A stretch of 62,876 bases of DNA from Comamonadaceae bacterium. GTDB taxonomy: Bacteria > Pseudomonadota > Gammaproteobacteria > Burkholderiales > Burkholderiaceae_C. The stretch's first letter is position 1; every line of letters begins with the position of its first letter. Below the pieces are notes generated by a model. The model was given only the letters and a program-made list of their open reading frames with translations. It was not told the DNA's origin and made no database searches. The translations under genes and the position numbers were made by a program. Shown here piece after piece: positions 20,761 through 62,772 of this stretch. The stretch is from the NCBI GenBank assembly GCA_015999985.1, contig JAECRA010000022.1, positions 1-62,876 on the forward strand. The letters are read 5' to 3'.

Positions 20761-20844
20761 CGGCGCCCATGATGGGCGCCGCGCAATCAATAATTTCTTA
20801 GACGAATCTATTGCCTGCCGAGCCTGCGCATTACCGTGCGCAGG
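20761..20844 (+). repeat. Two perfect stem-loops between ilvI and ilvH
   Basis: CGGCGCCCA (20761-20769) pairs with TGGGCGCCG (20773-20781) around TGA. CCTGCGCA (20823-20830) pairs with TGCGCAGG (20837-20844) around TTACCG. Neither is followed by a T-run, so they are not classical terminators. They sit between subunit genes of one enzyme, just upstream of the ilvH ribosome site. Confidence 0.75.
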
Positions 20845-20874
20845 GGAGGGCAGCGAAAAGAGGAATCTTTCATC

Positions 20875-42177: not shown

Positions 42178-42918
42178 ATGATGGGTAAAAGAGTCGCATA
42201 CGTAACGGGTGGCATGGGTGGTATCGGAACCGCTATTTGCCAGCGCTTGCATAAAGAGGGCATGACCGTTATCGCTGGCTGCGGCCCTACACGCGATTTC
42301 AAGAAATGGCTTGATGAGCAGAAGGCTTTGGGCTATGAGTTTCACGCCAGCGTTGGCAATGTGAGTGACTGGCAATCCACTACGGATGCGTTTACCAAGG
42401 CCAAGGCCGAACATGGCCCTATCGAGGTGTTGGTCAACAACGCAGGCATCACTCGTGACCGCATGTTCTTGAAAATGACCCGTGACGACTGGGATGCGGT
42501 GATCGACACCAACCTCAATTCCATGTTCAACGTCACTAAACAAGTGGTGCCAGACATGGTGGAGGGTGGCTGGGGCCGAATCATCCAGATCAGCTCAGTG
42601 AACGGTGAGAAGGGCCAGTCTGGGCAGACGAACTACTCTGCTGCCAAGGCAGGCATGCACGGTTTTACCATGGCTCTGGCGCAGGAAATGGCGAATAAGG
42701 GCGTCACTGTGAATACAGTGAGTCCTGGCTACATCGGAACCGACATGGTCAAGGCTATTCGCCCAGACGTGCTGGAAAAGATTGTGGCCACTATTCCCGT
42801 CAAGCGTCTGGGCACGCCGGAGGAAATCGGCTCAATCGTCGCCTGGCTGGCCAGCGAAGATTCCGGCTTCACCACCGGTGCTGACTTCTCGTGCAACGGC
42901 GGCCTGCACATGGGCTGA
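42178..42918 (+). CDS. phaB: Acetoacetyl-CoA reductase
   Basis: A 246-residue short-chain dehydrogenase giving (R)-3-hydroxybutyryl-CoA with NADPH. Motifs: nucleotide loop VTGGMGGIGTAIC, NNAG in VLVNNAGITRDR, and catalytic Ser-Tyr-Lys in ISSVNGEKGQSGQTNYSAAK. Two consecutive ATG codons open the gene; AAGGAG lies four bases before the first, so the second (42181) may be used. Length matches PhaB (246). A terminator follows at 42971. Confidence 0.96.
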   Translation: MMGKRVAYVTGGMGGIGTAICQRLHKEGMTVIAGCGPTRDFKKWLDEQKALGYEFHASVGNVSDWQSTTDAFTKAKAEHGPIEVLVNNAGITRDRMFLKMTRDDWDAVIDTNLNSMFNVTKQVVPDMVEGGWGRIIQISSVNGEKGQSGQTNYSAAKAGMHGFTMALAQEMANKGVTVNTVSPGYIGTDMVKAIRPDVLEKIVATIPVKRLGTPEEIGSIVAWLASEDSGFTTGADFSCNGGLHMG

Positions 42919-48589: not shown

Positions 48590-48613
48590 AAATGATAATA
48601 ATTATCATTTAAC
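48585..48613 (+). promoter_or_regulatory. Perfect 21-bp Fur box overlapping a promoter-like sequence
   Basis: AAATGATAAT (48590-48599), a central A, and ATTATCATTT (48601-48610) form a perfect palindrome that closely fits the Fur box consensus. A possible -35 TTGTCA (48585-48590) and -10 TTTAAC (48608-48613), 17 bp apart, flank it, so Fur-Fe2+ would block RNA polymerase. The first gene downstream starts at 48694. Confidence 0.88.
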
Positions 48614-48693
48614 ATCGGGGGTCGGAAGTAGAGCATTCACTGGCAAGTCTGTGTAGCTGCTCGTGCTATTTGAATAGAAGTCAAAGGAAATTC

Positions 48694-50100
48694 ATGACCA
48701 AACCCTCCATCGCCATGGGCAGATCTATCGCAGCGCTGTCGCTTGCCGTAGTCTTGGCGGCGTGTGCCTCTCCTGGCTTTGAGGCGCCAGACGCGAGCTT
48801 CAAAGGGCGTGTGAATGTCATCGAAACGCCCGTAGTTTTGGCCGGAAGCAATGTGAAGCTTGCCGGCCAGGACTTCAAGCCCGGCCAGGAAGTGACCATC
48901 TATTACGCAGGTACTGCGCTGAACCAGGCGCCTGCCTTAGTGGGTGCTGATGGAAAATTTCAGACACAGTTTAGGGTGCCACAAGGCGCGCAGACAGGAA
49001 ACCATTCGCTTACTGTGAACGCCGCCAAGCCGGCCGCAGCCGTATTGCTTCCGCTCAAGGTGTCTCCAGATGTGCCTTTGTCAGGGCAGGCGCGCTTTGA
49101 TGTCAAAGTGCAGAAGCTCGTGCCGGGTCTCTATCAGGCCGCATACAGCGCCAGGAATGACCGTGTTTTCGTGACATCCGCCGTCGGGCGGCCCCCCATC
49201 AGCCAGACGGAACTGATCAAGATCAACCCTCAGACTCTGGCCATTGAGGCTCGTGTCGAAGCGGGTCTTGTGCCTGCTGCCGCTGCCGCTTCGGGCAACA
49301 CGCCAGCGGTCAATCGATTTGCCGTTTATGGCGTGGCAGTGGACGATGTCAACGGTACTGTCTGGGTGACCAACACGCGCCAGGATACCGTGGCCGTGTA
49401 CAACCAGGCTGATTTGAAGCTGATCAAACAGTTTGAGGTTGGCGTGGTACCGCACGCGCGTGATGTGGTGGTGGATGCCGCGCTTGGTAAAGCCTACGCG
49501 ACACCCGTCGGCCAGACCGAAATTGTGGTCTTTGACACCAAGGCGCTCGCAGTGCTGAAGAAAATTCCTCTGCAGACCACGATCAAAGGCCCCGGCGACC
49601 GCAAATTCTCGCCTATGAGTCTTGAGCTCGACGCAGCCAATCACCGTCTCTTCACGGTGAGCATGTCCACCAACGAAGCTGCGGTGATCAACACACGTAC
49701 TGATCAGGTTGAAAAAGTGTTTGCTATCGAAGGTGCCCGGTCTGCTTCCGGCGTTGCCTACGATTCCAAGACCAACCGCATTCTGGTCGCATCCCAAGGT
49801 TCTGACAATTTGATCATCGCCGATGTGGCAACCGGCAAGGTGCTGCACGATGTGAAGGTGGGGGCTGGCACGTTGAACGTAGCGTTCGACCCGGTGAGCA
49901 ACCTGGCGTACGTGTCTAACCGCGCATCGGACACGGTGACCGTGGTGGATATCAACGGCCGGATCGTTGCCAATCTGGCGGGCGGCTCTTTCCCTAACCA
50001 CGCTGCGATTGACGGCAAGGGCGGAGTCTTCGCCGTGAACAAAGCACGTGGCTCAGATGATGCTCAAGGTGACCGCATCACGTACATCAAATTGCGTTGA
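48694..50100 (+). CDS. Iron-regulated beta-propeller lipoprotein (YncE-like)
   Basis: A 468-residue predicted lipoprotein. Start at ATG 48694 with AAAGGAA upstream; a TTG at 48670 gives a longer, less likely form. The type II signal ends in VVLAAC. Residues about 35-140 look like an Ig-like domain (VVLAGSNVKLAGQDFKPGQE). Residues about 145-465 form a YVTN/YncE-type propeller with repeats such as VYGVAVDDVNGTVWVTNTRQ, NRILVASQGSDNLIIADVAT and LAYVSNRASDTVTVVDI. E. coli YncE is also Fur-regulated, though its role is unclear. It lies directly behind the Fur box and heads the siderophore gene row, 204 bp before the transporter. Confidence 0.85.
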   Translation: MTKPSIAMGRSIAALSLAVVLAACASPGFEAPDASFKGRVNVIETPVVLAGSNVKLAGQDFKPGQEVTIYYAGTALNQAPALVGADGKFQTQFRVPQGAQTGNHSLTVNAAKPAAAVLLPLKVSPDVPLSGQARFDVKVQKLVPGLYQAAYSARNDRVFVTSAVGRPPISQTELIKINPQTLAIEARVEAGLVPAAAAASGNTPAVNRFAVYGVAVDDVNGTVWVTNTRQDTVAVYNQADLKLIKQFEVGVVPHARDVVVDAALGKAYATPVGQTEIVVFDTKALAVLKKIPLQTTIKGPGDRKFSPMSLELDAANHRLFTVSMSTNEAAVINTRTDQVEKVFAIEGARSASGVAYDSKTNRILVASQGSDNLIIADVATGKVLHDVKVGAGTLNVAFDPVSNLAYVSNRASDTVTVVDINGRIVANLAGGSFPNHAAIDGKGGVFAVNKARGSDDAQGDRITYIKLR

Positions 50101-50304
50101 TTCGCCAAGGATCAAAGCCTCTCTCGCTCCATGGACAACCGACCGAGGGGCAGGGCTGTTTGAGGGGGCTCGCTCCCCATTCAACAGCGGGTGTGCCCGG
50201 CATGGGGAGCAGGCTTTTGGCAGTTGCGTCTTGGCGCTTACAAGGCGCGATCCAACAGAGCGCCCCGTTGTCTTGTCGATAAAAAATTACTCCATCCCAC
50301 CGAT

Positions 50305-51306
50305 ATGTCTAAAAACAATCGCCTTGCGGTACTGACCGGCGTCTCTGCGGCCTTGGCCCTGTCCGTCGTTCTGGGTTTCCCTGTCATGACCAACGCACAA
50401 GCGTTGCCGCCTGGCTGGTTGGCCGTTGGTGAGCCGCACAGCCTGAAGGTCTCTAGCGCAACCCCCAAACTGCCTGTCGCGGTGACGTCTGACGACGGTG
50501 CCACAGTGCGCATTACCGATGCGTCCCGCGTGATCGTGGGCGGTGACGATGTCATAGGCATCATGGAGGCGCTTGGACTGGGCAGCCGCGTTTTTGCGGC
50601 GCCTGAGAGCTCTGTCACCGCGGCCGGGCGCAAGGCCCCCAATCATTTTCTTTTCAACCGAACCACAGGGGCTGAAGGCGTTTTAAGCCTGGATGGCACG
50701 CTGTTTGTGGGCAACAGCCTGCGGCGGCATGCCAAGCTGTCTGAAACCCTCCGCAAGACTGGTTTGCCGTCCATTGTGATTGACGATCTGCAGCCGGCCC
50801 CCCAAAAAGTCCGCAAAACTGCGGCGGCGTTCGGCCTGAAAAACGAAGGCGAGAACCTCGCACGTGAACTGGAGCGTCAGTACAAGCAAGCAGAGACTCT
50901 TGCCCGACAATTGCCGCGCCGCACACGCATCCTTCATATTTCCGCTACCGGAGGTGGCGGTCGTCCCACGGTGGGCGGCAAGGATACGGCGGCAGCTCAG
51001 CTCATTCGCCTGGCAGGCGGCGTCAATGTGGGGGACGACGCCAAAGCGGGCGACTACACGTCGCTGAGCAACGAAGGCATGGTGGCCGCCGCACCGGAAG
51101 TCGTGTTGCTAACCCGCAGCGATCTGGAGCTCTTCGGAGGTGAAGCCGGAATATGGCGCAGTTACCCCGCGCTAAAACAGACGCCTGCCGGGCAGGGCAA
51201 CCGCATCTGGGTCATGCCTGATGAGCAGCTCAAGATCGTGGGTGTGCATTCCGGTGAGGGTGCTCTCGCACTTGCAAACGCACTCAAGGGTTTGAATTCG
51301 AAGTGA
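50305..51306 (+). CDS. hmuT: Heme/siderophore ABC transporter, periplasmic binding protein (HmuT-like)
   Basis: A 333-residue class III binding protein. Start at ATG 50305; the frame from 50191 adds non-signal sequence. Signal peptide about residues 1-31 (MTNAQA). The two lobes show VIVGGDDVIGIMEALGLGSR, GAEGVLSLDGTLFVGN, and GGGRPTVGGKDTAAAQLIRL then AGGVN and a YTSLSNEGMVAAAPEVVLL stretch, a pattern more like HmuT (heme) than FepB. A stretch of about 45 residues precedes the first lobe. Because the gene is embedded in a siderophore cluster, the ligand may be a ferric catecholate. Its stop overlaps the permease start. Confidence 0.83.
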   Translation: MSKNNRLAVLTGVSAALALSVVLGFPVMTNAQALPPGWLAVGEPHSLKVSSATPKLPVAVTSDDGATVRITDASRVIVGGDDVIGIMEALGLGSRVFAAPESSVTAAGRKAPNHFLFNRTTGAEGVLSLDGTLFVGNSLRRHAKLSETLRKTGLPSIVIDDLQPAPQKVRKTAAAFGLKNEGENLARELERQYKQAETLARQLPRRTRILHISATGGGGRPTVGGKDTAAAQLIRLAGGVNVGDDAKAGDYTSLSNEGMVAAAPEVVLLTRSDLELFGGEAGIWRSYPALKQTPAGQGNRIWVMPDEQLKIVGVHSGEGALALANALKGLNSK

Positions 51307-52364
51307 GTTCCGACGCCACTACCTTGCGCTCGGGCGTTCGACGTCCCAGTGGATATTTACTGCTTGTGTTGCTGTCCGGCGTGCTGCTTGCTGCCATGGT
51401 GCTTTCTTTTGGTATCGGACCGCTCAAGGTAGCGCCTGCGGACGTACTGCGCATCGTGCTTGAGCGCTTTGGCCTTGGAGATGCTGAAGGCTTGAAGGCT
51501 CGCGACATGGCCGTCATCTGGAACTTGCGCATTCCCCGTGCACTCATGGGTGCGCTGGTGGGCGCGGCTTTGGCCATGGCCGGTGCCGGGTTGCAGGGCC
51601 TCTTTGGAAACCCCCTGGCAGACCCCGGCGTGGTGGGTGTGAGCCAAGGCGCCGCACTTGGTGCGGTCAGTGCGATCGTGATGGGAGCCAGTGCTTTAGG
51701 TGAATGGACCGTTCCTGTGGCGGCGTTTGTGGGTGGCATGGTCTCTACCACGCTGATCTACCTGTTGGCCCGGCCCGGGCGAGGGAGCGGAACGGTCACG
51801 TTGCTTCTGGTCGGCATCGCCATTGGGGCTGCCTGCTCGGCGGCTATCGGATTTCTGACCTACCGCGCCAATGCCGCCCAGTTGCAGTCACTGGTATTCT
51901 GGCAGATGGGCTCGCTAGGTTCTGCAGACTGGTCCGACCTGGCTGCGGCCTTGCCGGTGTTCCTGCTTGGTGTGACGGGGATGTTGTTGCTGGCCAAGCC
52001 GCTCGACATGCTTGCCCTGGGGGAGCGGCAGGCGCAGCACATCGGCCTGGATGTGCGGCGTGCTCGAGTCTTGCTGGTGACTTGTTCTGCGCTCCTGGTA
52101 GGGGCAGGGGTGGCGTTTGCGGGCACCATAGGCTTTGTCGGTCTGGTTGTGCCTCACGTGGTACGGCTGCTGGCCGGCCCGGGGCATCGTTGGTTATTGC
52201 CCCTTTCCGCATTGACGGGGGCCGCCTTGATTGTCGTGGCTGATACCGCTGCGCGCACCCTGGACCCTCCCTCCGAAATTCCGCTCGGGCTATTTTCTGC
52301 CGCCATTGGCGCGCCATTTTTCCTCTGGTTGGTTTTGCGCCAGCGGCCGGGAGGCGCGCGATGA
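51303..52364 (+). CDS. hmuU: FecCD-family iron/heme ABC permease
   Basis: A 353-residue permease with about nine or ten transmembrane helices. Family marks are IWNLRIPRALMGALVGAALA with AGAGLQGLFGNPLADPGVVG, GAALGAVSAI and FVGLVVPHVVRLLAGPGHRW near the C terminus (the FecCD signature). Starts with GTG (51303) inside the hmuT stop, and its stop overlaps the ATPase start (ATGA), so hmuT-U-V are translated as a unit. It forms the inner-membrane channel. Confidence 0.94.
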   Translation: MSSDATTLRSGVRRPSGYLLLVLLSGVLLAAMVLSFGIGPLKVAPADVLRIVLERFGLGDAEGLKARDMAVIWNLRIPRALMGALVGAALAMAGAGLQGLFGNPLADPGVVGVSQGAALGAVSAIVMGASALGEWTVPVAAFVGGMVSTTLIYLLARPGRGSGTVTLLLVGIAIGAACSAAIGFLTYRANAAQLQSLVFWQMGSLGSADWSDLAAALPVFLLGVTGMLLLAKPLDMLALGERQAQHIGLDVRRARVLLVTCSALLVGAGVAFAGTIGFVGLVVPHVVRLLAGPGHRWLLPLSALTGAALIVVADTAARTLDPPSEIPLGLFSAAIGAPFFLWLVLRQRPGGAR

Positions 52365-53143
52365 AATCGACCACCGGACAGGCGCTACTGAGCTTGCGCG
52401 ATGCAAGCTTTGCGATCGATGGACAAGCCCTGGTGCAGGGGGTGTCGCTTGACTTCCAGCCCGGCACGCTCACGGCCCTGGTCGGGCCCAATGGCGCTGG
52501 CAAGTCGACCTTGCTTGCTCTGGCCGCTGGCGACCATGTTCCTACTCAAGGCAGCGTGCAGGTGCACGGCAAGCCGATTGACCGTTGGCGTGTGCGTGAG
52601 CTTGCGCGCGAGCGATCGGTCATGCCGCAGGATCATGCCGTGCGTTTCGCATTTTCAGTGTATGAAGTCGTTGCCATGGGGCGCCTGCCGCATCCGCCTG
52701 ACCCTGCTCAGGACGCGCAGATTGTCGACGCTTGCATGGCAGCTGCCGATGTGAGCCACCTCGCACAGCGCGACGTGCAATCCCTTTCCGGCGGAGAGTC
52801 GGCGCGCACCGCATTTGCACGTGTGCTTTCGCAGCAGACGCCCCTCATCTTGCTGGACGAACCCACTGCGGCACTCGACCTTAAACATCAGGAGTCGATG
52901 CTGCGCAGCATGAGAGGTCTCACCCAGGCCGGGCACTGTGTGATTGCGGTGCTTCACGATCTCAATCTTGCGGCCGCCTACGCGGACAGGATCGTCATGT
53001 TGAGCCGAGGGCGTGTGATGGCCGACGGCACACCGCGTGAAGTGCTGACACGTGAGCGCATCCATTCCATCTACGGGCAACCCGTCACAGTGATCGAACA
53101 TCCGACCCGCCCGATTCCCTTGATTGTCACCATAGACCCATGA
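52361..53143 (+). CDS. hmuV: Iron/heme ABC transporter ATPase
   Basis: A 260-residue ATPase. Walker A GPNGAGKST (residues 42-50), Q-loop in VMPQDHAV, signature LSGGESAR, Walker B LILLDEP and switch His in VIAVLHDLN are all intact. The overall match is to HmuV, but FepC-type proteins are close relatives. It overlaps hmuU and the downstream esterase gene by 4 bp each, making the transporter and siderophore genes one operon. Confidence 0.94.
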   Translation: MKSTTGQALLSLRDASFAIDGQALVQGVSLDFQPGTLTALVGPNGAGKSTLLALAAGDHVPTQGSVQVHGKPIDRWRVRELARERSVMPQDHAVRFAFSVYEVVAMGRLPHPPDPAQDAQIVDACMAAADVSHLAQRDVQSLSGGESARTAFARVLSQQTPLILLDEPTAALDLKHQESMLRSMRGLTQAGHCVIAVLHDLNLAAAYADRIVMLSRGRVMADGTPREVLTRERIHSIYGQPVTVIEHPTRPIPLIVTIDP

Positions 53144-54180
53144 CCCCTTCGTTCCATCGGCCTCGCCGGATTGTCTTGCTCGCCTTGGCCGGCGGCGCTT
53201 TTATGCAAGGCTGCGCCAGCAGCACAAAGACGATGACGATGACCGCCGCTCCATCGGATCAGCCCATTCCGCCTACCAATCTGGATCTGTCCACGTACTC
53301 TTTGAACCGGCCGGTGGGTAAGAGCGTTGCCGATGTGGGCTCGCTTCACTACCGGTTTGAGCACTTCAAGCTTGACTCTGCAGATGGAAAGCGTCATTAC
53401 CGAGTGCAATTGGCAGTGCCCAAGGCACCTCCACCGCCTGCAGGCTATCCCTTGCTGCTGATGCTGGATGGCAATGCTTCTTTTGCTTCCCTGACCGAAG
53501 ACCAATTGAAGCAGATGGCGGACAGCAACCGACCTGTGGCCATTGCAGCCCTGGGTTATGAGACCCATCTTGGGGTGGATGTGGCGGCACGTTCCTTTGA
53601 TTACACGCCGCCGGTGCCAGGTGAGGACCCCACGTGGGACGACGAAATGCGTAAGCGCCTGGGCGGTGGGGCAGATGTTTTCCTGGATCTGCTTGAACAA
53701 AAAATGCTGCCTGAGATTCGACGCCGCATACCCAGCGACCCGGCACGCACCACGCTGTGGGGCCACTCGTACGGAGGCCTGCTGACGCTCTACACACTTT
53801 TCACGCGTCCGCAGTTATTTCCGCGCTACGCTGCCGCCGATTCCTCCTTGTGGTGGCACGAGGGCTTCATCTTGAAGGTCGAAGCCAATGCGCGGCCTGT
53901 TCCCTCAGGCCGCACCACTGAATTGCTGTTGATGGCCGGCAGTTCCGGGCTGGAAGTGCAAAACGAAACGCGCGCTCTGCGTCCTGGGCTCGATCCGGCG
54001 ATGGTCTTGGCAGCACGTGAGCGTCGGCGCTCGGTACCACCGGATGCGGCACTCAAGCTTGCGGAGCGTCAGGCCCTGCGCCAAGGCGTGGCCGTGACGT
54101 GGAAGCCCTTTCCCGGCGTCAGCCACGGACCGATGCGTCCGGCTTCCATCCCCCCTACGCTTGAGTTTGCAGCGCGTTGA
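53140..54180 (+). CDS. Siderophore esterase-like lipoprotein (IroE/BesA-type)
   Basis: A 346-residue alpha/beta hydrolase of the esterase (putative esterase / IroE) group. A lipobox in AFMQGC suggests a lipid-anchored, periplasmic enzyme. The hydrolase core has PLLLMLDGNASFASL, nucleophile elbow WGHSYGGLL (Ser210), and a late GVSHGPMRP with the catalytic His. IroE-type enzymes cut ester bonds of trilactone catecholate siderophores. The 4-bp overlap with hmuV and the DHB-ligase and EntF-like genes downstream support a role in trimming the secreted siderophore or releasing iron from it in the periplasm. Confidence 0.85.
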   Translation: MTPSFHRPRRIVLLALAGGAFMQGCASSTKTMTMTAAPSDQPIPPTNLDLSTYSLNRPVGKSVADVGSLHYRFEHFKLDSADGKRHYRVQLAVPKAPPPPAGYPLLLMLDGNASFASLTEDQLKQMADSNRPVAIAALGYETHLGVDVAARSFDYTPPVPGEDPTWDDEMRKRLGGGADVFLDLLEQKMLPEIRRRIPSDPARTTLWGHSYGGLLTLYTLFTRPQLFPRYAAADSSLWWHEGFILKVEANARPVPSGRTTELLLMAGSSGLEVQNETRALRPGLDPAMVLAARERRRSVPPDAALKLAERQALRQGVAVTWKPFPGVSHGPMRPASIPPTLEFAAR

Positions 54181-54185
54181 ACGCC

Positions 54186-55436
54186 ATGAATTCCACGTCC
54201 GCCCCGTTTCGCATATTTCCTCTGCTGTTTGCGGCCTTGACGGGGACCATGGCCATGATGTCCTACGTGGCTGTGATCGGTCCCATCGTGCGCCGTCTCG
54301 GCTTGCCTGAGTGGATCGCAGGGCTGTCACTTACCGTGGGTGGAGTGTTCTGGATGCTGCTGGCGCGCTGGTGGGGGCGTGTCAGTGACCGCCACGGCCG
54401 CAAGCGGGTGTTGCTCATCGGCTTGGCCGTATTTGCACTGGTCTATGCGGGCCTGGCCGTTGGCGTTGATGTCGCCCTGCGCGGATATGCGGGCGTGACC
54501 GCAGTGGCCGTGCTGCTGATCGTCACTCGATCCCTGATCGGCGCCTTTTATGCCGCCGTGCCACCCACGGCCGCGGCTGCGGTGGCAGACAATACCTTGC
54601 CAAGAGATCGCCCCTCCGCCATGGCCAAGCTGGGCACCGCCAATGCGCTCGGCATGGTGGCTGGACCTGCAGCCGCGGGGTGGTTGGCCACTCTGAGCCT
54701 GGGGGGCGCGCTCTATGCAGCGGCCGTGCTGCCTGCCTTGGGTTTCCTCGTTATCGCTTTCTGCTTGCCAGCTGACCAGCCTCTGGCGGCTGAGAAGGCT
54801 GCGCTGCGTGCACAGGCTGCACCGGGCCAGCGTCCCCGCGCAGGGCTGACTTGGTGGGACCCGCGACTGCGTCACCTGAATCTGACGGCATTCACGGCGA
54901 TGGGCTCCGTGGCCATCGCACAGGTTCTGGTGGGATTTTTCTCCATGGATCGTCTTGGCCTCAGCGAAGCAGAGGGCGCACGAGTGGCTGGGCTCTCACT
55001 CACGGTGGTGGGTTTTGCGCTCATTTTTTCCCAGCAGTTTGTCATGCGCCTGAAAAGCGTGCCCCCGACGCGTTGGATTTGGCTGGGCGCTTTGATTGCT
55101 GCGCTCGGTTTTTCCAGCGTCACGCTCGCACATGTCCAATCCGCCATCCTGTTGGGCTACGGAGTCGGGGCCTTCGGCATGGGCATGATTTTTCCGACCT
55201 TTCAAGCCATGGCCGCCAATGCAGTGGACTCCCATGAACAGGGCGCTGCAGCGGGCACCCTGGCTGCTGCGCAGGGCTTGGGCATGGTGGTGGGGCCCCT
55301 GGCGGGCACCGTGCTTTATCAAATGGCGCCGGCCTTGCCTTATCTATTCGTTGCGGGTGGCCTGCTCATCCTGAGTGTGGGCACTGTCCTTATTCGGGCT
55401 AACAAGGCGGTGCCTGCTTCGAGCCAGGACGTTTGA
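54186..55436 (+). CDS. MFS transporter, probable siderophore exporter
   Basis: A 416-residue major facilitator with 12 predicted helices. The helix 2-3 loop has WWGRVSDRHGRKRVLLIG. ATG 54186 is taken as the start; a TTG at 54177 overlapping the esterase stop would add three residues and follow the 4-bp overlap pattern of this operon. The setting between a siderophore esterase and assembly enzymes points to export of the siderophore across the inner membrane, in the role of EntS. Substrate by context only. Confidence 0.83.
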   Translation: MNSTSAPFRIFPLLFAALTGTMAMMSYVAVIGPIVRRLGLPEWIAGLSLTVGGVFWMLLARWWGRVSDRHGRKRVLLIGLAVFALVYAGLAVGVDVALRGYAGVTAVAVLLIVTRSLIGAFYAAVPPTAAAAVADNTLPRDRPSAMAKLGTANALGMVAGPAAAGWLATLSLGGALYAAAVLPALGFLVIAFCLPADQPLAAEKAALRAQAAPGQRPRAGLTWWDPRLRHLNLTAFTAMGSVAIAQVLVGFFSMDRLGLSEAEGARVAGLSLTVVGFALIFSQQFVMRLKSVPPTRWIWLGALIAALGFSSVTLAHVQSAILLGYGVGAFGMGMIFPTFQAMAANAVDSHEQGAAAGTLAAAQGLGMVVGPLAGTVLYQMAPALPYLFVAGGLLILSVGTVLIRANKAVPASSQDV

Positions 55437-55502
55437 ATGCGGGCGCAAGTTCATCTTTCATCTGAACTCAGATCTCACTGCGAATTCACATCCACACGGA
55501 CC

Positions 55503-57173
55503 ATGTCAGAGCCACTCATTGCCCTGCGTCAAACCTGGCCAGAGGAATTCGTTCAACGCTATCGCCAGGCTGGATATTGGCGCGGCGAGACCTTTCCGGG
55601 ATTCTTGCGCGAGAGGGCAAGGCGTCACTCAGAGCGTACTGCCATTGTTGACCATGAAAAGCGTTGGACCTATGCAGAATTAGGTGAGCATGCGGAGACG
55701 ATCGCGTCGGGCCTGCTGGCCTTGGGTCTGCAACGGGGAGATCGTGTCGTCGTGCAGATCGGCAACGTCGCGGAGTTCTACGGCGTGGCGTTCGGGCTGT
55801 TTTTGGCAGGCATGATCCCGGTCTATGCACTGCCCGCGCACCGCATCACGGAAATCAGCCATTTCGTCCGCAAGTCACAGGCTTCGGCTTACATAGCGCA
55901 GCAGCAATACGGCGGGTTTGACTACCGCACTCTGGCGCGCGAGTTGATGGCACGCGAGCCTGCTATCAAGCAGGTGGTGATATCTGGCGACGCGGCGGAG
56001 TTCACGTCGCTTCAGGACTTCAAGCACAACGCTGCGCGGCTTCCCGCACAAGACCCCAATCCGCAATCGGTGGCGTTCTTGCAGATCTCGGGGGGAAGCA
56101 CGGGTCTTTCCAAGCTCATCCCACGCACGCACGACGACTACATATACAGCTTCCGGGCGAGCAACGACATATGCGCCATCACCGAGAACAGTCGCTATAT
56201 GGTGGTCTTGCCAGCGGCTCATAATTTCCCTATGAGTTCTCCGGGCGCTCTTGGCGTGCTTTACTCCGGAGGCACTGTCGTGCTCTCGCGCTCGACTGCA
56301 CCGGAAGACGCCTTTGCGCTGATTGAACGCGAGCGTGTCACTGATCTCGGCCTGGTGCCCCCCTTGGCGCTGCTGTGGGCACAAGCAGCACAGCAGACAA
56401 GATGTGATCTGTCCAGCCTCAAGGTGCTCCAAGTGGGCGGGGCCAAACTCACGCCAGAAGCGGCGCGCCGCGTGATTGCCGGATTTGGGTGCCAATTGCA
56501 GCAGGTGTTTGGCATGGCAGAGGGACTGGTCAACTACACACGTTTGGATGATGACGAATCCATCGTTCTGAACACGCAAGGCCGCCCCATCAGTCCGGAT
56601 GACGAAGTTCTGGTGGTCGACGATCAAGGGCAGGAGGTACCCATAGGGCAGATCGGCTACCTGCTCACGCGTGGCCCGTACACCATTCGCGGCTATCACA
56701 ATGACGACGCTGCCAATGCCCGGGCTTTCACGGAAGATGGTTTTTATCGTACTGGCGATGTGGTGCAACGCTCAGCCGACGGCTACCTCACGGTTCAAGG
56801 CCGCGCCAACGACCACATCAACCGGGCTGGCGAAAAAATATCCGCTGAAGAAGTTGAAGACCATCTCCTGGCTCATCCACAGGTGTTCGATGCCGCGGTG
56901 GTTTCCATTCCGGACGAATACCTGGGCGAGCGCATCTGTGCATTCATCATCGTGCGTGGTGAGAAGCCGCGCGCGCCTGTACTCAAGGCCTGGATGCGAG
57001 AGCGCGGGTTGGCAGCCTTCAAGATTCCGGACCAGATCGTCTTTGTAGATGCATTCGAGAACACGGCTGTCGGCAAGACCAGCCGCAAGGAATTGCGTGC
57101 CCGCCTGCGTGGCGAGTTCCTGGATGGCCAGAGCGCTTCGGCCAAATTCCCTTCTAACAACCCAGTGACATGA
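55503..57173 (+). CDS. entE: 2,3-dihydroxybenzoate-AMP ligase
   Basis: A 556-residue free-standing aryl-acid adenylation enzyme, which activates 2,3-dihydroxybenzoate (DHB) and loads it onto an aryl carrier protein. ATG 55503 (MSEPLIALRQTWPEEFVQRY) is preferred over the frame start at 55437. Motifs: LQISGGSTGLSKLIPRTH (A3), aryl-acid core HNFPMSSPG (His240, Asn241, Ser246) and VFGMAEGLVNYT with Val343, and GRANDHINRAGEKIS. Ser246 and Val343 align with DhbE Ser240 and Val337, residues associated with DHB rather than salicylate, where Cys and Leu are seen. It overlaps the carrier-protein gene by 4 bp (ATGA). Confidence 0.92.
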   Translation: MSEPLIALRQTWPEEFVQRYRQAGYWRGETFPGFLRERARRHSERTAIVDHEKRWTYAELGEHAETIASGLLALGLQRGDRVVVQIGNVAEFYGVAFGLFLAGMIPVYALPAHRITEISHFVRKSQASAYIAQQQYGGFDYRTLARELMAREPAIKQVVISGDAAEFTSLQDFKHNAARLPAQDPNPQSVAFLQISGGSTGLSKLIPRTHDDYIYSFRASNDICAITENSRYMVVLPAAHNFPMSSPGALGVLYSGGTVVLSRSTAPEDAFALIERERVTDLGLVPPLALLWAQAAQQTRCDLSSLKVLQVGGAKLTPEAARRVIAGFGCQLQQVFGMAEGLVNYTRLDDDESIVLNTQGRPISPDDEVLVVDDQGQEVPIGQIGYLLTRGPYTIRGYHNDDAANARAFTEDGFYRTGDVVQRSADGYLTVQGRANDHINRAGEKISAEEVEDHLLAHPQVFDAAVVSIPDEYLGERICAFIIVRGEKPRAPVLKAWMRERGLAAFKIPDQIVFVDAFENTAVGKTSRKELRARLRGEFLDGQSASAKFPSNNPVT

Positions 57174-57433
57174 CGACTCCAGCAACTTCCGACGCTACAG
57201 CTTTCACACTTGAGCGCATTCGCGGCGACATTGCGAATCTGATTGGTGAGTCGCCCAACGACATCGGTCTGGATGACAACCTGATGGACCTTGGCCTGGA
57301 CTCCATGCGTCTGCTTGGCCTCATTGCCGAGTGGACTCAAGCAGGCCTGCAGATTGATATCTTTGAGTTGGGTGAACATACGACCCTGGGAGGGTGGTGG
57401 AGTGTGATCCAGAAGCACCAGGGTCAGGCGTGA
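57170..57433 (+). CDS. Free-standing aryl carrier protein
   Basis: An 87-residue phosphopantetheine-binding protein. The carrier motif is DLGLDSMRLL with the prosthetic-group Ser at residue 45. It resembles the C-terminal ArCP domain of EntB but has no isochorismatase domain. It presumably accepts DHB from the ligase encoded just upstream and presents it to the condensation domain of the peptide synthetase just downstream. Its start overlaps the ligase stop, and its TGA overlaps the GTG of the synthetase (GTGA), so three assembly proteins are translated in sequence. Confidence 0.92.
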   Translation: MTTPATSDATAFTLERIRGDIANLIGESPNDIGLDDNLMDLGLDSMRLLGLIAEWTQAGLQIDIFELGEHTTLGGWWSVIQKHQGQA

Positions 57434-60400
57434 CCACCGTTTCCGATTCGCAAGCTGAGCCCTCTGCTGCGCAATATGAGGCTTCGGCCGAGACCCCTCC
57501 CATCATCGTCGTAGCAGTCTCTCAGCCATGGCCGTTGACCGAAGCCCAGCTCGGCCTTTGGTACGCGCAGCGCCTGGCCCCAGAGAACCCCAGTTTCAAT
57601 ACCGGACATGCGCTGTGGATTCGCGGTGAGCTGAACGAAGCCGCCTTTACTGAAGCTGCGTTGCAAGCTGCGAGTGAGGCACAGTCACTGAGCCTGGCGT
57701 TTCGTGATGGTTTTGATGGGCCGCGCCAGTGGCTGGACGCGTCGCGTCTCCCCGATCTGGAGCGGGTTGATCTAAGCACCTCACCAGACGCGGCCACCTG
57801 CGCTCGCGAGATCTTCCTGCAGGACATGCAGACACCGATTGACCCAGTGACTGCGCCGCTTTCACGGCAGTGTTTGTTTGTTCTGGGGCCCGATGCTTAT
57901 GTCTGGTATCAGCGCGTCCACCATCTGGCCAACGATGGGTATGGCATGGCTTTATGGGGCGCCCGAGTGTGCGAGCTTTATGCACGCCGCGTCCATGGTG
58001 CGGCTGATCGCTCGCCCTTGAATGGTTTGAAAGCCGTGGTGGAAGAAGACGCCAACTACGGCCAAAGTGATCGCCGCGTGAACGACGCGGCGTTCTGGCG
58101 CGAGAGCTTTGGGGATGTGCCTGAGGTTTCCAGCATGGCGTCCGGGCGAGCCATCAGCGCGTCTACTTGCCATAGGCTGACGGTGGCCATGGATCCTGAG
58201 CTTACCGTTCGCCTGTTGGCGTTCGCTCAATCAGCCAAACTGCCTTGGCCAGATGTGCTCACATCGCTTACGGCCCTGTATGTGCAGCGCATGTCCGGTG
58301 CGGCGCAAACGGTTGTGGGCGTTCCCTACATGGGCAGGTTGGGCAGCACCAGCGCGCGCGCCACGGCCACTGTGATGAATGTCCTGCCACTTCGAGTGGC
58401 CGCGACGCTCGAATTGCCGCTGACCCAGTTTCTCCAGGACATGGCAGGCCAGCAGGCCCGCGCTCGCCGCCACGGCCGCTACCGCAGCGAGCAGCTAAGG
58501 CGGGACCTTGGCTTGTTGGGTGGACAGCGCAGGCTTTATGGGCCATTGATCAACGTACAGCCCTTCTATCGGCCGCTGGACTTGGTGGGTGTGAGCGCTG
58601 ATCTGGAGATTCTGGGCACCGGACCTATTGATGACATCACCCTGGGTTTTCGAGGCGACGGCGTTCACCGCCTTGACCTCGAGATTGAAGCCAATCCTGA
58701 TTTATACAGTCTTGCTTCTGTGCAGGCGCACAAGGAACGCTTGTTGGCTTTCCTGGAAGCCGCCATGTCCGCACACACGGTCGGCGACATCCCCTTGGCC
58801 AGCCCTGCAGAAGCCAGACGCTATCTTGTCGATGTCAACGCCACTGAGCATGACGTACCCCAGACATCACTCTCTGCCTTGATGGAAGAGCGCATGGCCA
58901 ACACGCCGCAGGCAGTTGCGCTGGAGTTTGAAGGTGAGCAGCTTACCTATGGTGAGCTGGAACTGCGCACGCGCGCACTGGCGTTGGCGCTGCGCAGGCG
59001 AGGCGTTGGGCGCGAGAGTCTGGTCGTTGTGGCGCTTCCTCGGTCGCTGGAACTGGTGATTGCGCTGGTTGCTGTATTGCGATCTGGCGCGGCCTATCTT
59101 CCGCTAGATCTAGACCATCCGCCCGAGCGTCTTGCTCGTGTGATTGCTCTCGCACGGCCAGAATGCGCCCTGGTGCGCCATGCCGACGCAGCATGCCTGC
59201 CTTCAGCGCTGGCCATACTTGATCCGTCGGAGTGGCCTCTTGAACCTGAGTCTGCCCCACACGGGTTGTCCTTGACGCCGCCAGCTCCGCAAGATGCGGC
59301 TTACGTCATCTATACCTCAGGATCTACGGGAGAGCCCAAAGGCGTGGTGATAGAACACCGGGCCATCGTGAACAGGCTCGAATGGATGCGCCAGCACTAT
59401 GGCTTTGATGAGACTGATCGCATTCTTCAGAAAACCCCAGCCACTTTTGATGTCTCGGTCTGGGAGTTCTTCCTGCCCCTTGTGACCGGTTGCACCTTGG
59501 TGCTTGCACCACCGCAAGCTCACCGCGACCCCGCGTGGTTGGCATCCATCATTCGCCAGCACAAGATCGGAACCTGCCACTTCGTGCCTTCCATGCTCGC
59601 AGCTTTTCTGGCCCATCCAGGTTCACGGGGCCTGCGTCTTCGCCGAATTTTCTGCAGCGGTGAGGAGCTGCCGGCCACGCTCCGCGAGCGCTTGCATGCC
59701 ACATTGAATAGCGAACTGCACAACCTCTACGGACCCACAGAGGCCGCAGTGGACGTAAGCTATTGGCCAGCCGATATTCAAGACCATTCGCATCCAGTAC
59801 CTATTGGGTATCCGGTATGGAACACCCGCCTTTATGTGCTTGATGGGAACATGAATCCGCTTCCGCCTGGTGTGGCCGGCGATCTCTACCTGGGGGGTGC
59901 ACAGCTTGCCCGCGGTTACCTGGGGCGCGAAGACTTGACTGCTGAACGCTTCCTGCCTGACCCTTACCGCGCAGGTGAACGAATCTACAAAACCGGCGAT
60001 CTGGCGCGCTGGCGTGATGACGGCGCAGCCGTGTTTCTGGGACGCAGCGACCACCAGATCAAACTGCGTGGCTTGCGCATCGAGCTAGGCGACATAGAAG
60101 CGGCGATGGCATCGTTTGGCCAAGTGGTGCGCTCTGGCGTCGTGGTGCGCGAGGACCGCCCCGGTGACAGGCGTCTAGTTGCCTATGTGCAACCCGGTGC
60201 TGCATACGAACCCAGTGCGCTTCACGCCCATGTGGCAGGGCGGGTACCAGATTACATGGTACCCAGCGCTTTCGTCGTCCTTGATGACTGGCCCGTGACC
60301 AGCAACGGCAAGCTTGACCGCGCGCGCCTGCCGGCACCCGATCTTGACATGGTGAGCGGCCAAAGGCTTCAGACGCGCACAGAAGTGACACTGGCTGAAG

Positions 60401-61410
60401 TGTTCAATCAGGTGCTTCAGTTGAAACCGGGCACTCCTCTGACGAGAGAGGCAGACTTTTTCAGTCTCGGGGGAGATTCGCTTCTGGCGGTTCAAATGCT
60501 GCAACGGGTGCAGGACATCTGGGAACGAAACCCCGGGTTGGGTACCTTATTTGCCAACCCCAGCCTAGGGGCGTTGGCCGCGGCCATTGACGCCCAAGAG
60601 GTGCGTTTTGACAGCGGTTTGGCACCGTTGATTCAGCTGGCTTCTGGTGATCCCGCTCAACCGCTGGTCTTTGCCGTGCATCCTGCAGGGGGCATTTCTT
60701 GGGGGTACCGACTGCTGGCGCGCGCCTTGGCTCAGACAGAGCAGGGGAGCACAAGAAGCGTGTACGGCCTGCAGTCTCCGGCGCTGGAGCCTGAGGCGCC
60801 GTTGCCTCACAGCATTGACGAGCTTGCCAAACAGTACGTGTCGCGTGCGCTCGAACTGCAGCCCCGCGGGCCCATCCACCTATTGGGTTGGTCTGTTGGC
60901 GGAATCATCGCCCAGGCGATGGCTGTCGAGCTGCAGGCACGTGGCCGTGAGGTGGGCATGGTTGCGCTGCTGGATGCCTATCCTGCCGATGTTTGGCGAG
61001 CCGAGCCCGAGCCAACCCCTATCCAGGCCCTGCGCGCCTTGCTGGCTGTGGCCGGCCATGATCCAGAAGGCCACCCGGAGCTCACCACACGTGAGGCTGT
61101 GATCAAATTTCTGCGAGAAGGCAATACGGCACTGGGCCATCTTCCCGATAAAGCGCTGCAAGGCGTTGTACGGGTGGTGACCGACACCAACCGATTGATT
61201 CGGCAGCACCACCACCAGTATTTTGGCGGCACCATCACGCACGTGCGCGCAGCTCGCGACCATGCGAACAAGCCACAACTGCAAGCCAGTCGATGGCAGC
61301 AGTATGCTGCGCGGGTAGATACCTTGGAAGTGCCTTTGCTGCACGCCGAGATGACCGGCGTGCAAGCTACCGCGCTCATTGCGCCAGCACTGCTGCGGCG
61401 TCTGCTTTAG
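57430..61410 (+). CDS. entF: EntF-like nonribosomal peptide synthetase (C-A-T-TE, serine)
   Basis: A 1326-residue synthetase. GTG 57430 is the start, overlapping the carrier gene. Domains: condensation (about 40-475; HHLANDG, His164-Gly170), adenylation (about 480-975; YTSGSTGEPKG from Tyr628), thiolation (Ser1017 in GGDSLLAVQ) and thioesterase (about 1050-1326; GWSVGG Ser1155, Asp1182, His1305). Pocket residues read D674, V675, W678, then H, F, S, L, V, D from the HFVPSML, FCSGEELP and LYGPTEAAVD segments, plus the usual Lys, which is the EntF serine code. The single module with a terminal thioesterase can make DHB-Ser and may cyclise a trimer, as EntF does. An MbtH protein is not seen in the window. 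Confidence 0.93.
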   Translation: MTTVSDSQAEPSAAQYEASAETPPIIVVAVSQPWPLTEAQLGLWYAQRLAPENPSFNTGHALWIRGELNEAAFTEAALQAASEAQSLSLAFRDGFDGPRQWLDASRLPDLERVDLSTSPDAATCAREIFLQDMQTPIDPVTAPLSRQCLFVLGPDAYVWYQRVHHLANDGYGMALWGARVCELYARRVHGAADRSPLNGLKAVVEEDANYGQSDRRVNDAAFWRESFGDVPEVSSMASGRAISASTCHRLTVAMDPELTVRLLAFAQSAKLPWPDVLTSLTALYVQRMSGAAQTVVGVPYMGRLGSTSARATATVMNVLPLRVAATLELPLTQFLQDMAGQQARARRHGRYRSEQLRRDLGLLGGQRRLYGPLINVQPFYRPLDLVGVSADLEILGTGPIDDITLGFRGDGVHRLDLEIEANPDLYSLASVQAHKERLLAFLEAAMSAHTVGDIPLASPAEARRYLVDVNATEHDVPQTSLSALMEERMANTPQAVALEFEGEQLTYGELELRTRALALALRRRGVGRESLVVVALPRSLELVIALVAVLRSGAAYLPLDLDHPPERLARVIALARPECALVRHADAACLPSALAILDPSEWPLEPESAPHGLSLTPPAPQDAAYVIYTSGSTGEPKGVVIEHRAIVNRLEWMRQHYGFDETDRILQKTPATFDVSVWEFFLPLVTGCTLVLAPPQAHRDPAWLASIIRQHKIGTCHFVPSMLAAFLAHPGSRGLRLRRIFCSGEELPATLRERLHATLNSELHNLYGPTEAAVDVSYWPADIQDHSHPVPIGYPVWNTRLYVLDGNMNPLPPGVAGDLYLGGAQLARGYLGREDLTAERFLPDPYRAGERIYKTGDLARWRDDGAAVFLGRSDHQIKLRGLRIELGDIEAAMASFGQVVRSGVVVREDRPGDRRLVAYVQPGAAYEPSALHAHVAGRVPDYMVPSAFVVLDDWPVTSNGKLDRARLPAPDLDMVSGQRLQTRTEVTLAEVFNQVLQLKPGTPLTREADFFSLGGDSLLAVQMLQRVQDIWERNPGLGTLFANPSLGALAAAIDAQEVRFDSGLAPLIQLASGDPAQPLVFAVHPAGGISWGYRLLARALAQTEQGSTRSVYGLQSPALEPEAPLPHSIDELAKQYVSRALELQPRGPIHLLGWSVGGIIAQAMAVELQARGREVGMVALLDAYPADVWRAEPEPTPIQALRALLAVAGHDPEGHPELTTREAVIKFLREGNTALGHLPDKALQGVVRVVTDTNRLIRQHHHQYFGGTITHVRAARDHANKPQLQASRWQQYAARVDTLEVPLLHAEMTGVQATALIAPALLRRLL

Positions 61411-61476: not shown

Positions 61477-61554
61477 CTGGGACCGCCGAGCTCCTGCTCG
61501 GCATCTTCGGTTCTTCAGGCGCAGCCATGCCGAGCAGGAGCTCGGCGGTCCCAG
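61477..61554. repeat. Dispersed double-hairpin repeat, copy B
   Basis: Two perfectly complementary 28-bp arms (61477-61504 and 61527-61554) flank a 22-bp spacer. Each arm has its own inner hairpin, CCGAGC-TCCT-GCTCGG. It has the same plan as copy A at 22605-22687, with paired substitutions in the stems. It lies between the convergent ends of the synthetase and amidohydrolase genes and may serve as a two-way terminator. Confidence 0.9.
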
Positions 61555-61581: not shown

Positions 61582-62772
61582 TTAGGCCTTTGCCAGCCAG
61601 CGTTGCACAAGCCGGACAAAGAAACTCGCTCCCAGGGGGAGCAGGTCGTCATTGAAGTCGTAACTGGTGTTGTGCACCACACAAGGCCCCGCTCCGTGCC
61701 CTGGGTCTCTATGGCCGCCTTCGCCATTGCCAATGAAGGCGTAGCAACCAGGCACGGCTTCAAGCATGAAAGAAAAGTCCTCCGCCGCCATGATCGGTGT
61801 TTGAGTGATGACCTGGGATGCAGGCAACATCTCTGAAAGTACCTGACGCGCGAAAGCGGTTTCCGCCTCGTGATTGACAGTAGAGGGGTAGTTGCGACGA
61901 AACTCGAAATTACACGCCGCGCCAAACATGGCGCCAGCGTGTTCCGTGATCTCACGCATGCGACGCTCGATCAGGTCCAGGGTCTCTGCGGTATAGGCAC
62001 GCACAGACCCCTGGATCACGCAGTTGTCCGGAATCACATTGGGTACATCGCCTGCGTGAATCATCGTGACCGACACCACGGCTGTTTCCAGTGGCTTTTT
62101 GCTGCGCGTGATGATGGTCTGAAGTGCAGGCAAGATCTGGCTGGCTACCGCAATAGGGTCTACAGACAGCTGCGGCATGGCTGCATGCCCGCCCTTGCCA
62201 CGCACGGTGATTTTGAATTCGTTATTGGAAGCCAGCACAGGCCCTGGTGAGGCTGCTATGGTCCCCACCGGAATGCCCGGCATGTTGTGCATGCCAAATA
62301 CCGCATCCATAGGAAATAGTTCGAACAAGCCGTCGCGCATCATCTCGCGTGCACCGGCCCCGTGTTCCTCCGCCGGCTGAAAGATGAGGTAGACCGTGCC
62401 ATCGAAGTCGCGGTGCTGGGCGAGGTATTGCGCCGCGCCCAACAGCATGGTTGTATGGCCATCATGTCCGCACGCGTGCATTTTCCCGGGGTGCTGGCTG
62501 GCATGCTCGAACTGATTCGACTCCTGCATGGGCAGGGCGTCCATGTCGGCACGCAGGCCGATGGCGCGGTTAGAGCTGCCTTGCTTGAGAATGCCCACCA
62601 CACCTGTCTTGCCCAGACCTCGGTGAATGGGAATGCCCCATTGCGTCAACAGATCAGCCACCAGATCCGACGTGCGAGTCTCTTCAAATGCCAGTTCAGG
62701 GTGAGCGTGAATGTCACGCCGGACAGTGCGCAAATACGCGGCCTGGCTCACGATGTCATCAATCAATTTCAT
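61582..62772 (-). CDS. M20-family amidohydrolase (hippurate hydrolase / aminoacylase type)
   Basis: A 396-residue zinc metallopeptidase-fold enzyme that cleaves N-acyl amino acids. N terminus: RRDIHAHPELAFEE. Metal ligands appear in MHACGHDGHTTMLLGA (Cys and His), FQPAEEHGAGA (Glu-Glu) and a GMHNMPGIPVG stretch. The dimerisation domain includes GKGGHAAMPQLSVDPIAVAS, and the late AAEDFSFMLEAVPG completes the site. Length is typical. It is convergent with the peptide synthetase, separated by the copy B repeat. The substrate (hippurate, indole-3-acetyl conjugates or others) cannot be assigned. Confidence 0.92.
   Translation of the reverse strand: MKLIDDIVSQAAYLRTVRRDIHAHPELAFEETRTSDLVADLLTQWGIPIHRGLGKTGVVGILKQGSSNRAIGLRADMDALPMQESNQFEHASQHPGKMHACGHDGHTTMLLGAAQYLAQHRDFDGTVYLIFQPAEEHGAGAREMMRDGLFELFPMDAVFGMHNMPGIPVGTIAASPGPVLASNNEFKITVRGKGGHAAMPQLSVDPIAVASQILPALQTIITRSKKPLETAVVSVTMIHAGDVPNVIPDNCVIQGSVRAYTAETLDLIERRMREITEHAGAMFGAACNFEFRRNYPSTVNHEAETAFARQVLSEMLPASQVITQTPIMAAEDFSFMLEAVPGCYAFIGNGEGGHRDPGHGAGPCVVHNTSYDFNDDLLPLGASFFVRLVQRWLAKA

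Follow-up and report, generated by a model that had tools for sequence, protein, structure and literature searches.

The enterobactin system of Escherichia coli comprises entCEBAF, entD, entS, fes and fepABCDG. In this study, a related operon was analyzed in a 62,876-base stretch of Comamonadaceae DNA (hereafter, the window), which is one complete contig (C30) of a draft genome (G000) of 4.34 Mb in 115 contigs that is 79% complete. The operon is a plus-strand row of nine genes, from position 48694 to 61410, encoding a beta-propeller lipoprotein, an ATP-binding cassette (ABC) transporter (three genes), an esterase, a putative major facilitator superfamily (MFS) exporter, a 2,3-dihydroxybenzoate (DHB) ligase (EntE), a stand-alone aryl carrier protein (ArCP) and an EntF-like serine synthetase. 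It shares with the E. coli system the EntE–EntF logic, the serine code, the esterase, the exporter and FecCD-type import; unlike that system, it has neither an EntB fusion nor entCBA, its esterase carries a lipoprotein-type signal, and its ABC transporter is of another subfamily. The locus is probably a working, Fur-controlled, enterobactin-like operon of the entCEBB'FA kind that has become separated from its DHB-making genes and receives DHB from a source beyond the gene row.

In PMC12210187, Stenotrophomonas maltophilia entCEBB'FA is described as an enterobactin-like siderophore system with a separate carrier gene, and separate isochorismatase and carrier genes are also ascribed to griseobactin producers. 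The window operon shares with entCEBB'FA, as presented there, the separate aryl carrier gene and relatives of EntE and EntF. Six Stenotrophomonas loci (L175, L180, L181 from [Pseudomonas] hibiscicola, L182, L186 and L205) encode EntE proteins 69–70% identical to the window ligase in the order entC-entE-isochorismatase-ArCP-entF-entA, with an MFS gene in front in five of the six. Unlike in these loci, entC is unlinked in the window genome, entA and entB were not found, and the transport and esterase genes stand in the same row.

For nonribosomal peptide (NRP) metallophore clusters, the main text of PMC12971057 counts 21 cases with the chelator pathway elsewhere in the genome and ten with it nowhere, and leaves three options for the ten: decay, novel synthesis or an exogenous precursor, for which equibactin is the precedent. 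Those ten, as described there, resemble the window locus in being assembly lines without chelator genes anywhere in the genome, and equibactin is similar in needing an outside precursor, although it is another siderophore from another organism. The strings Comamonadaceae, Roseomonas and Burkholderi- have 0 occurrences in that main text; the clade may nonetheless be among the ten. Among the entries listed, our literature search showed no paper on this case in Comamonadaceae; two listed papers on Comamonadaceae and enterobactin were not opened. Clusters without a chelator pathway are already in print; notable here is that assembly has repeatedly been uncoupled from DHB synthesis, together with a useful natural experiment offered by two genomes of the same genus (G230 and G258). 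Genome mining finds catechol siderophore clusters largely through their DHB genes, so that loci such as this one escape and their number may be underestimated. The 2,3-DHB branch of the antiSMASH NRP-metallophore rule, as given in PMC12971057, calls for EntA and EntC in the cluster; since neither was found in the window, the locus would be missed by that branch.

Operon layout and Fur box

A 19-bp palindrome at 48591–48609 (no strand assigned), approximately 85 bp ahead of the first gene, has the sequence AATGATAATAATTATCATT and matches the Fur consensus AATGATAATNATTATCATT with 0 mismatches. This was the only perfect site in the whole draft, in which seven sites were found at up to three mismatches and 0 with a reversed control pattern. 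The closest relative analyzed (G274) has a Fur box with one mismatch ahead of its operon copy. Judging from the box, the operon is predicted to be under Fur control in the cell. The gene row, its order and strand and the perfect Fur box had been named in the original prediction, and all were confirmed.

The original prediction had also described mostly 4-bp overlaps from the transporter on. Overlaps of exactly 4 bp were found at five junctions (binding protein/permease, permease/ATPase, ATPase/esterase, esterase/MFS and ligase/carrier), and the carrier/synthetase junction becomes a sixth if the synthetase starts at the GTG at 57430; with the GTG at 57394, that overlap is 40 bp. The MFS/ligase gap is 0 or 66 bp, depending on the ligase start, and the lipoprotein and binding protein genes are separated by approximately 200 bp. 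The operon has a G + C content of 0.607, and bases 1–48000 of the window have one of 0.58. At third codon positions, the operon values (0.63–0.70) resemble those of two other window genes (0.69 and 0.75). Composition thus gives no sign of recent import.

The row stops at the synthetase gene, on which a minus-strand M20 amidohydrolase gene converges. Between the two lies a terminator-like inverted repeat (61479–61552; no strand assigned) with perfect 26-bp arms approximately 22 bp apart and a predicted RNA fold of -75.8 kcal/mol (z, -8.2); a 23-bp core of it had no exact match in the 277 loci compared. Since the convergent gene and the repeat follow directly, the operon does not continue into DHB genes on the synthetase side.

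Assembly enzymes

EntE (55503–57173, plus strand; alternative start 55437) was assigned as a 2,3-dihydroxybenzoate-AMP ligase by TIGR02275, with 736.5 bits against a curated cut-off of 723.55. Its nearest solved structure is DhbE (1md9), and its pocket segment AHNFPMSSPG corresponds to AHNYPLSSPG in DhbE, with the second serine of SSPG kept. The salicylate ligases 5wm2 and 7tyb have a cysteine in place of this serine, a position that we take to discriminate DHB from salicylate, and a salicylate-type ligase is disfavored by the pocket segment. Loading of another aryl acid, such as salicylate or 3,4-dihydroxybenzoate, would account for the missing 2,3-DHB genes; such a substrate is nonetheless improbable for a ligase with a DHB-type pocket, a score above the DHB-ligase cut-off and 70–76% identity to ligases of Xenophilus, Pseudothauera and Stenotrophomonas whose genes adjoin a complete entA-entC-isochorismatase set.

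The aryl carrier is a separate, EntB'-like protein of 87 residues (57170–57433, plus strand; PF00550) with the attachment motif DLGLDSMR. The EntF-like synthetase (57430–61410, plus strand; alternative start 57394) showed matches to condensation (C), adenylation (A), thiolation (T) and thioesterase (TE) domains in the order C-A-T-TE. It scored 840 bits on the EntF model NF007605, under the cut-off of 2400, and its best solved relative is EntF 5ja1, with which it has in common the segments FDVSVWE, HFVPSM, FCSGE and VDVS; in EntF, these carry the serine code. The specificity and catalytic motifs are intact. The protein families and gene order suggest an enterobactin-type assembly line with an oligomeric DHB-Ser product, possibly cyclic tri-DHB-serine: EntE would activate DHB, ArCP would be loaded with it, EntF would join it to serine, and the TE domain would release the oligomer.

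DHB genes in the source genome

No match to chorismate-binding or isochorismatase families was found on the window contig. A tblastn search of the window with proteins of relatives as queries (EntA, EntC, isochorismatase, two receptors and three phosphopantetheinyl transferases) had a single match, to a short-chain dehydrogenase/reductase (SDR) at 42190–42903; no gene-by-gene model scan was made for receptors and transferases. The SDR (gene at 42196–42906) was rejected as EntA, with 28% identity to EntA and 124 bits on TIGR04316. The predicted lack of DHB-synthesis genes in the window was thus confirmed by both approaches.

Genome-wide, two chorismate-binding enzymes were detected: a TrpE-sized protein of 541 residues and a protein of 394 residues on contig C20. 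The latter is an EntC/DhbC-type isochorismate synthase by TIGR00543 (254 bits; cut-off, 224.75) and scored 315 bits with DhbC (3os6), 251 with EntC and 102 with MenF among solved relatives; on the equivalog models for EntC and DhbC, it stayed below cut-off. Its gene stands alone amid catabolic-looking genes, adjoining a Bug-type gene (by eye), and no Fur-like site at up to four mismatches was found in its 18-kb contig. In G274, the orphan EntC is 93% identical and occupies the syntenic place.

Regarding EntA, the draft gave 58 TIGR04316 matches, none of which reached the cut-off of 300 (best, 171.8 bits; best identity, 39%); for calibration, the true EntA of a relative scored 323 bits, and other SDR models scored up to 177 on that EntA. 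Four isochorismatase-fold proteins are encoded in the draft. With the EntB-type isochorismatase of a relative as query, the best matches were 29% identical over partial length in G000 and 32% in G274, both of which are draft genomes. The C72 isochorismatase-fold protein has a glycine where the usual cysteine stands (by eye), and EntB presumably lacks that cysteine likewise.

These findings bear on a non-orthologous replacement, in which DHB would be made from the EntC product by another isochorismatase-fold hydrolase and another dehydrogenase. This reading overlaps with an outside supply of DHB and has a real, though minor, chance of being correct. Purifying selection acts on an intact EntC in both G000 and G274, the C72 protein and the 58 SDR matches provide candidates, and three relatives (G175, G069 and Pseudorhodoferax L169) have EntC and isochorismatase without a detected EntA. 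On the other side, the EntC contig lacks a Fur-like site, the candidates are unlinked, and the reading leaves genomes without EntC (G230, Saezia and four Acetobacterales) unexplained.

The genome check proposed along with the original prediction was for entA, entB and entC homologs and Fur-boxed TonB receptors. It yielded the isochorismate synthase on C20 and two candidate TonB-receptor genes (Plug domain) on C59 and C24, behind imperfect Fur-like sites with two and three mismatches, and it found neither EntA nor an EntB-type isochorismatase. Other Fur-like sites lie by an extracytoplasmic function (ECF)-type sigma factor gene (Pfam; L025, 939–1496), by a Plug-domain receptor gene that has a bacterioferritin-like gene nearby, and by a superoxide dismutase-like gene (L023 and L024; the last two names by eye).

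DHB genes in relatives

In a family sample of 250 genomes, an EntE match above 600 bits was found in 12, including the source genome; the same family group includes Vandammella and Saezia genomes, which bears out the assignment to Burkholderiales. All three DHB genes were present in five of the 12 (G079, G188, G022, G150 and G028, the last with a partial EntA match), placed away from the EntE locus in G188, G022 and G150. Two genomes (G175 and G069) had EntC and isochorismatase and no EntA above 39%, the source genome alone had only EntC, and four (G230, G126, G086 and G015, the last with a cluster of another kind) had none of the three at this level. EntE and an MFS gene are present in G086, and carrier and synthetase genes are not nearby. 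An EntB-type isochorismatase was not found in G000, G274, G230, G126 and G086, and the same query finds proteins 53–84% identical in nine relatives; G146 has neither this isochorismatase nor an EntE of this kind.

Among 29 genomes of the genus sample, ligases more than 50% identical to that of the window were encoded in five, including the source genome: G274 (89%), G230 and G258 (74%) and G265 (54%, with a synthetase just 30% alike) were the others. G274, at 99% completeness, keeps the gene order of the operon as well as the orphan EntC; a genome search of it gave no EntA and no EntB-type isochorismatase. G230, a single contig listed as 100% complete, has the assembly genes, and entA, entB and entC were all not found in it. 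In G258, entA-entC-isochorismatase immediately follows entF. The locus is otherwise collinear between the two, with an interval between matched blocks of approximately 250 bp in G230 versus approximately 2,980 bp in G258. Because Xenophilus and G079 share the order entF-entA-entC-isochorismatase, loss of the DHB genes in G230 appears to be the simplest reading. With the DHB cassette as its difference at this locus, the same-genus pair makes the options left open in print (decay, exogenous precursor or novel synthesis) testable by comparison.

In G175, G069 and Pseudorhodoferax sp. Leaf265 (loci L060, L063 and L169), EntF is followed by EntC and isochorismatase. The best EntA match genome-wide was 39% identical in G175 and 37% in G069, and L169 gave no match at 1e-34; another dehydrogenase may finish DHB in these three. 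EntE without carrier and synthetase in the fetched flank was observed in Lampropedia (L170), Vandammella (L172), Allofranklinella (L173, whose flank ends at a contig end) and G188 (L059), with an MFS gene in three of the four.

Sequence conservation and selection

The motifs and serine-code segments are kept in 14/14 synthetases examined whose genomes have either no DHB gene of the three or EntC only, as judged by alignment columns, with gene calls in high-GC loci made by codon model; one departure was seen in the C domain of Saezia, which has HHLLTDA instead of HHxxxDG. Between the source genome and G274, the ratio of nonsynonymous to synonymous divergence (dN/dS) was 0.04–0.12 for the nine operon genes, a rough estimate with synonymous sites near saturation, and 0.06 for the orphan EntC. 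The dS of the orphan EntC (L007, 6924–8108; L161, 7805–8989) was 0.62 and that of three of its neighbors 0.37–0.67, against 1.06–1.65 for the ent operon genes, 0.99 for the upstream thiolase and 0.77 for the upstream SDR. The operon region may have a history differing from that of the orphan EntC region.

The same data bear on whether the operon is a decaying remnant, unused after loss of the precursor pathway. DHB genes have been lost, dN/dS is higher in the G230–G258 pair, at 0.10 (EntE) and 0.23 (EntF) with dS saturated, and non-functional fragments are one option for such clusters according to the main text of PMC12971057. Decay is, nevertheless, highly improbable in view of nine open frames, the motifs kept in all 14 synthetases, the low dN/dS between G000 and G274 and the Fur box kept in both genomes. 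A relative-rate test in which Xenophilus served as outgroup to G230 and G258 detected no significant difference for MFS, EntE, ArCP or EntF, and G230 accordingly showed no significant acceleration; the unique amino-acid changes in G230 and G258, respectively, numbered 16 and 19 in EntE, 72 and 65 in EntF, 11 and 18 in MFS and 4 and 6 in ArCP.

Distribution of the locus and supply of DHB

Genome contigs were scanned with the ligase alignment, and the best 80 loci were kept, which is not a census. EntE-ArCP-EntF was found among them in Burkholderiales, Stenotrophomonas, Brevundimonas, Paracoccus, Roseomonas and others, and assembly loci of this kind occur in many alpha- and betaproteobacteria. 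This distribution does not support the view in the original prediction that catecholate trilactones are classically enterobacterial and hence odd in Burkholderiales. On the ligase strand of the fetched flank, 26 of the best 80 loci had no EntA, isochorismatase or EntC over cut-offs, a count in which some flanks are cut by contig ends and L220 has an opposite-strand EntA at the flank end; carrier and synthetase genes were present in 22 of the 26.

A genome-wide DHB search, made with a fused query, a strict E-value and up to 27 candidates scored per genome, covered 25 of these 26 loci (L217 was left out; L172 is G086 and L213 is G126), and completeness is unstated for genomes reached via loci. 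No match at 1e-34 was obtained in 12 of the 25 (L172, L176, L178, L185, L197, L210, L212, L213, L218, L224, L235 and L243), including L172, which has no synthetase nearby. With G230, 13 of 34 genomes searched had no match; these 34 had been picked for their bare loci, with controls added. The query reaches Rhodobacterales and Roseomonas, since the same search detected two or three DHB genes in other Rhodobacterales and a Roseomonas locus with the full set exists (L184). G230, Saezia and several Roseomonas and Rhodobacterales yielded no match to any of the three usual enzymes. Assembly therefore seems, at the level of homology, to have been decoupled from DHB synthesis repeatedly, in Burkholderiales, Acetobacterales and Rhodobacterales.

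An ordinary two-locus system, with entA and entB elsewhere in the real genome and outside the 79%-complete assembly, is unlikely. In its favor, the assembly lacks roughly one-fifth of the genome, 13 of the 25 genomes with bare loci carry part or all of the DHB set outside the flank (some on the same contig), G188, G022 and G150 have the genes at other places, and the orphan EntC itself shows dispersal of parts. However, G274, with the same gene order and orphan EntC, also lacks detectable entA and entB, and G230 lacks all three.

Several points weigh against the preferred reading, a working operon with DHB supplied from outside it. The missing entA and entB may lie in the unassembled fifth of G000, and G274, at 99% completeness, is yet a draft; in both, the contig ends near the operon. 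Unrelated isochorismatases and SDRs with the same activity would escape this homology search, and the C72 protein could be a substitute isochorismatase. To these is added the higher dN/dS of EntE and EntF between G230 and G258.

With an outside supply still the preferred reading, the orphan EntC of the source genome and G274 would make isochorismate, and the later steps would be performed by unrelated enzymes, or DHB would be taken up. In this lineage, the retention of EntC speaks for a route through isochorismate that unrelated enzymes complete, or else for gaps in the drafts where the later genes lie. Where all three DHB genes are missing, namely in G230, Saezia and several Roseomonas and Rhodobacterales, uptake of imported DHB is the plainest reading of the gene content. 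The original prediction had proposed a second locus or, alternatively, another pathway or organism as the DHB source; only EntC was found for the former, and the latter was strengthened by the relatives with none of the three genes. Uptake of DHB, if it occurs, would make siderophore assembly dependent on neighbors, amounting to piracy at the precursor level.

In Saezia, a phosphopantetheinyl transferase gene adjoins the ligase gene. A cytochrome b561-like gene, perhaps part of a ferric reductase, stands beside 13 ent loci (L197, L198, L206, L208, L210, L212, L216, L218, L223, L224, L225, L235 and L243).

Transport, esterase and lipoprotein genes

The first gene of the operon (48694–50100, plus strand) encodes a YncE-like beta-propeller lipoprotein with a signal ending in LAAC (by eye); its matches were below cut-offs, with 93 bits on NCBIfam 7_blade_YncE (cut-off, 400) and 25.9 bits on Pfam YNCE (cut-off, 27.1). 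It is followed by a periplasmic binding protein of the siderophore/heme/B12 ABC class (50305–51306, plus strand; PF01497, 50.9 bits), a FecCD-family permease (51303–52364, plus strand; PF01032, 316.8 bits) and an HmuV-type ABC ATPase (52361–53143, plus strand; heme ABC ATPase model NF010068, 307 bits; cut-off, 261). Of the three proteins, it is the ATPase that supports the label "heme-type" for this transporter, whose heme specificity is putative; it would import iron or iron-DHB-Ser.

The esterase gene (53140–54180, plus strand) encodes a protein of the Fes/IroE class (PF00756 Esterase, 43.3 bits) that scored 27.9 bits on the enterochelin esterase model (cut-off, 222). Given the lipoprotein-type signal seen by eye, it is perhaps located in the periplasm, where it would probably split the ester bonds of the returning siderophore. 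The MFS protein (54177–55436, plus strand; PF07690) would export the product, an EntS-like role suggested by its gene position.

Neighboring genes and a possible DHB salvage

The convergent M20-family amidohydrolase gene (61582–62772, minus strand) scored over the cut-off of TIGR01891, and the best solved relative of its product is IAA-amino acid hydrolase 1xmb; the protein is a possible N-aroyl amino acid hydrolase. An M20 gene adjoins the operon in G274 and in G230, where the order EntF-Bug-Bug-M20 runs in one direction, and stands in line with the operon in three Acetobacterales: Roseomonas (Pararoseomonas) indoligenes (MFS-M20-esterase-EntE), Roseomonas sp. SXEYE001 (MFS-M20-Bug-EntE) and an Acetobacteraceae metagenome-assembled genome (M20-Bug-MFS-EntE). 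The M20 proteins of the Burkholderiales and Acetobacterales groups are 43–48% identical. As a mark of DHB-less genomes, the M20/Bug neighbors were weakened because G258 and Xenophilus have them next to a complete entA-entC-isochorismatase set, and for the same reason they look ancestral in that group. Saezia and Roseomonas rosea have no M20/Bug neighbors nearby.

Tripartite ATP-independent periplasmic (TRAP) transporter genes were found near five of six Rhodobacterales loci without a DHB match (L210, 6455–9183; L224, 17398–20183; L235, 20217–21596; L218, 21057–21548; L243, 21101–21625), the sixth, L212, having none in the fetched flank, and near two of six Rhodobacterales loci with DHB genes (L206 and L223; not L208, L216, L220 and L225). 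This comparison was post hoc and grouped by genus name, with a taxonomic look-up for Carideicomes and Falsigemmobacter; several flanks end close by, and three of the seven hits are locus-end fragments. TRAP genes as a mark of DHB-less loci were likewise weakened by L206 and L223, whose DHB genes lie at other sites.

These neighbors suggest a DHB salvage, an unlikely arrangement in our estimate, in which DHB or N-DHB-amino acids would be imported by nearby carboxylate importers, the DHB would be freed by the M20 protein, an enzyme similar to plant IAA-amino acid hydrolases, and it would be rebuilt into an enterobactin-like siderophore. The importers would be of the TctC/Bug type in Burkholderiales and Acetobacterales and of the TRAP type in Rhodobacterales, and the DHB-Ser might come from the siderophores of the same or other species, so that catechol, recycled or stolen, would take the place of chorismate as starting material. 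The link of M20, Bug and TRAP genes to such a salvage is only suggestive, and no paper on a DHB-Ser amidohydrolase was seen among the entries listed by a literature search.

Apart from the operon and its neighbors, the window contains an ilvH RNA motif (Rfam RF02993; positions 20801–20868; 96.9 bits), which was its sole Rfam match at gathering thresholds.

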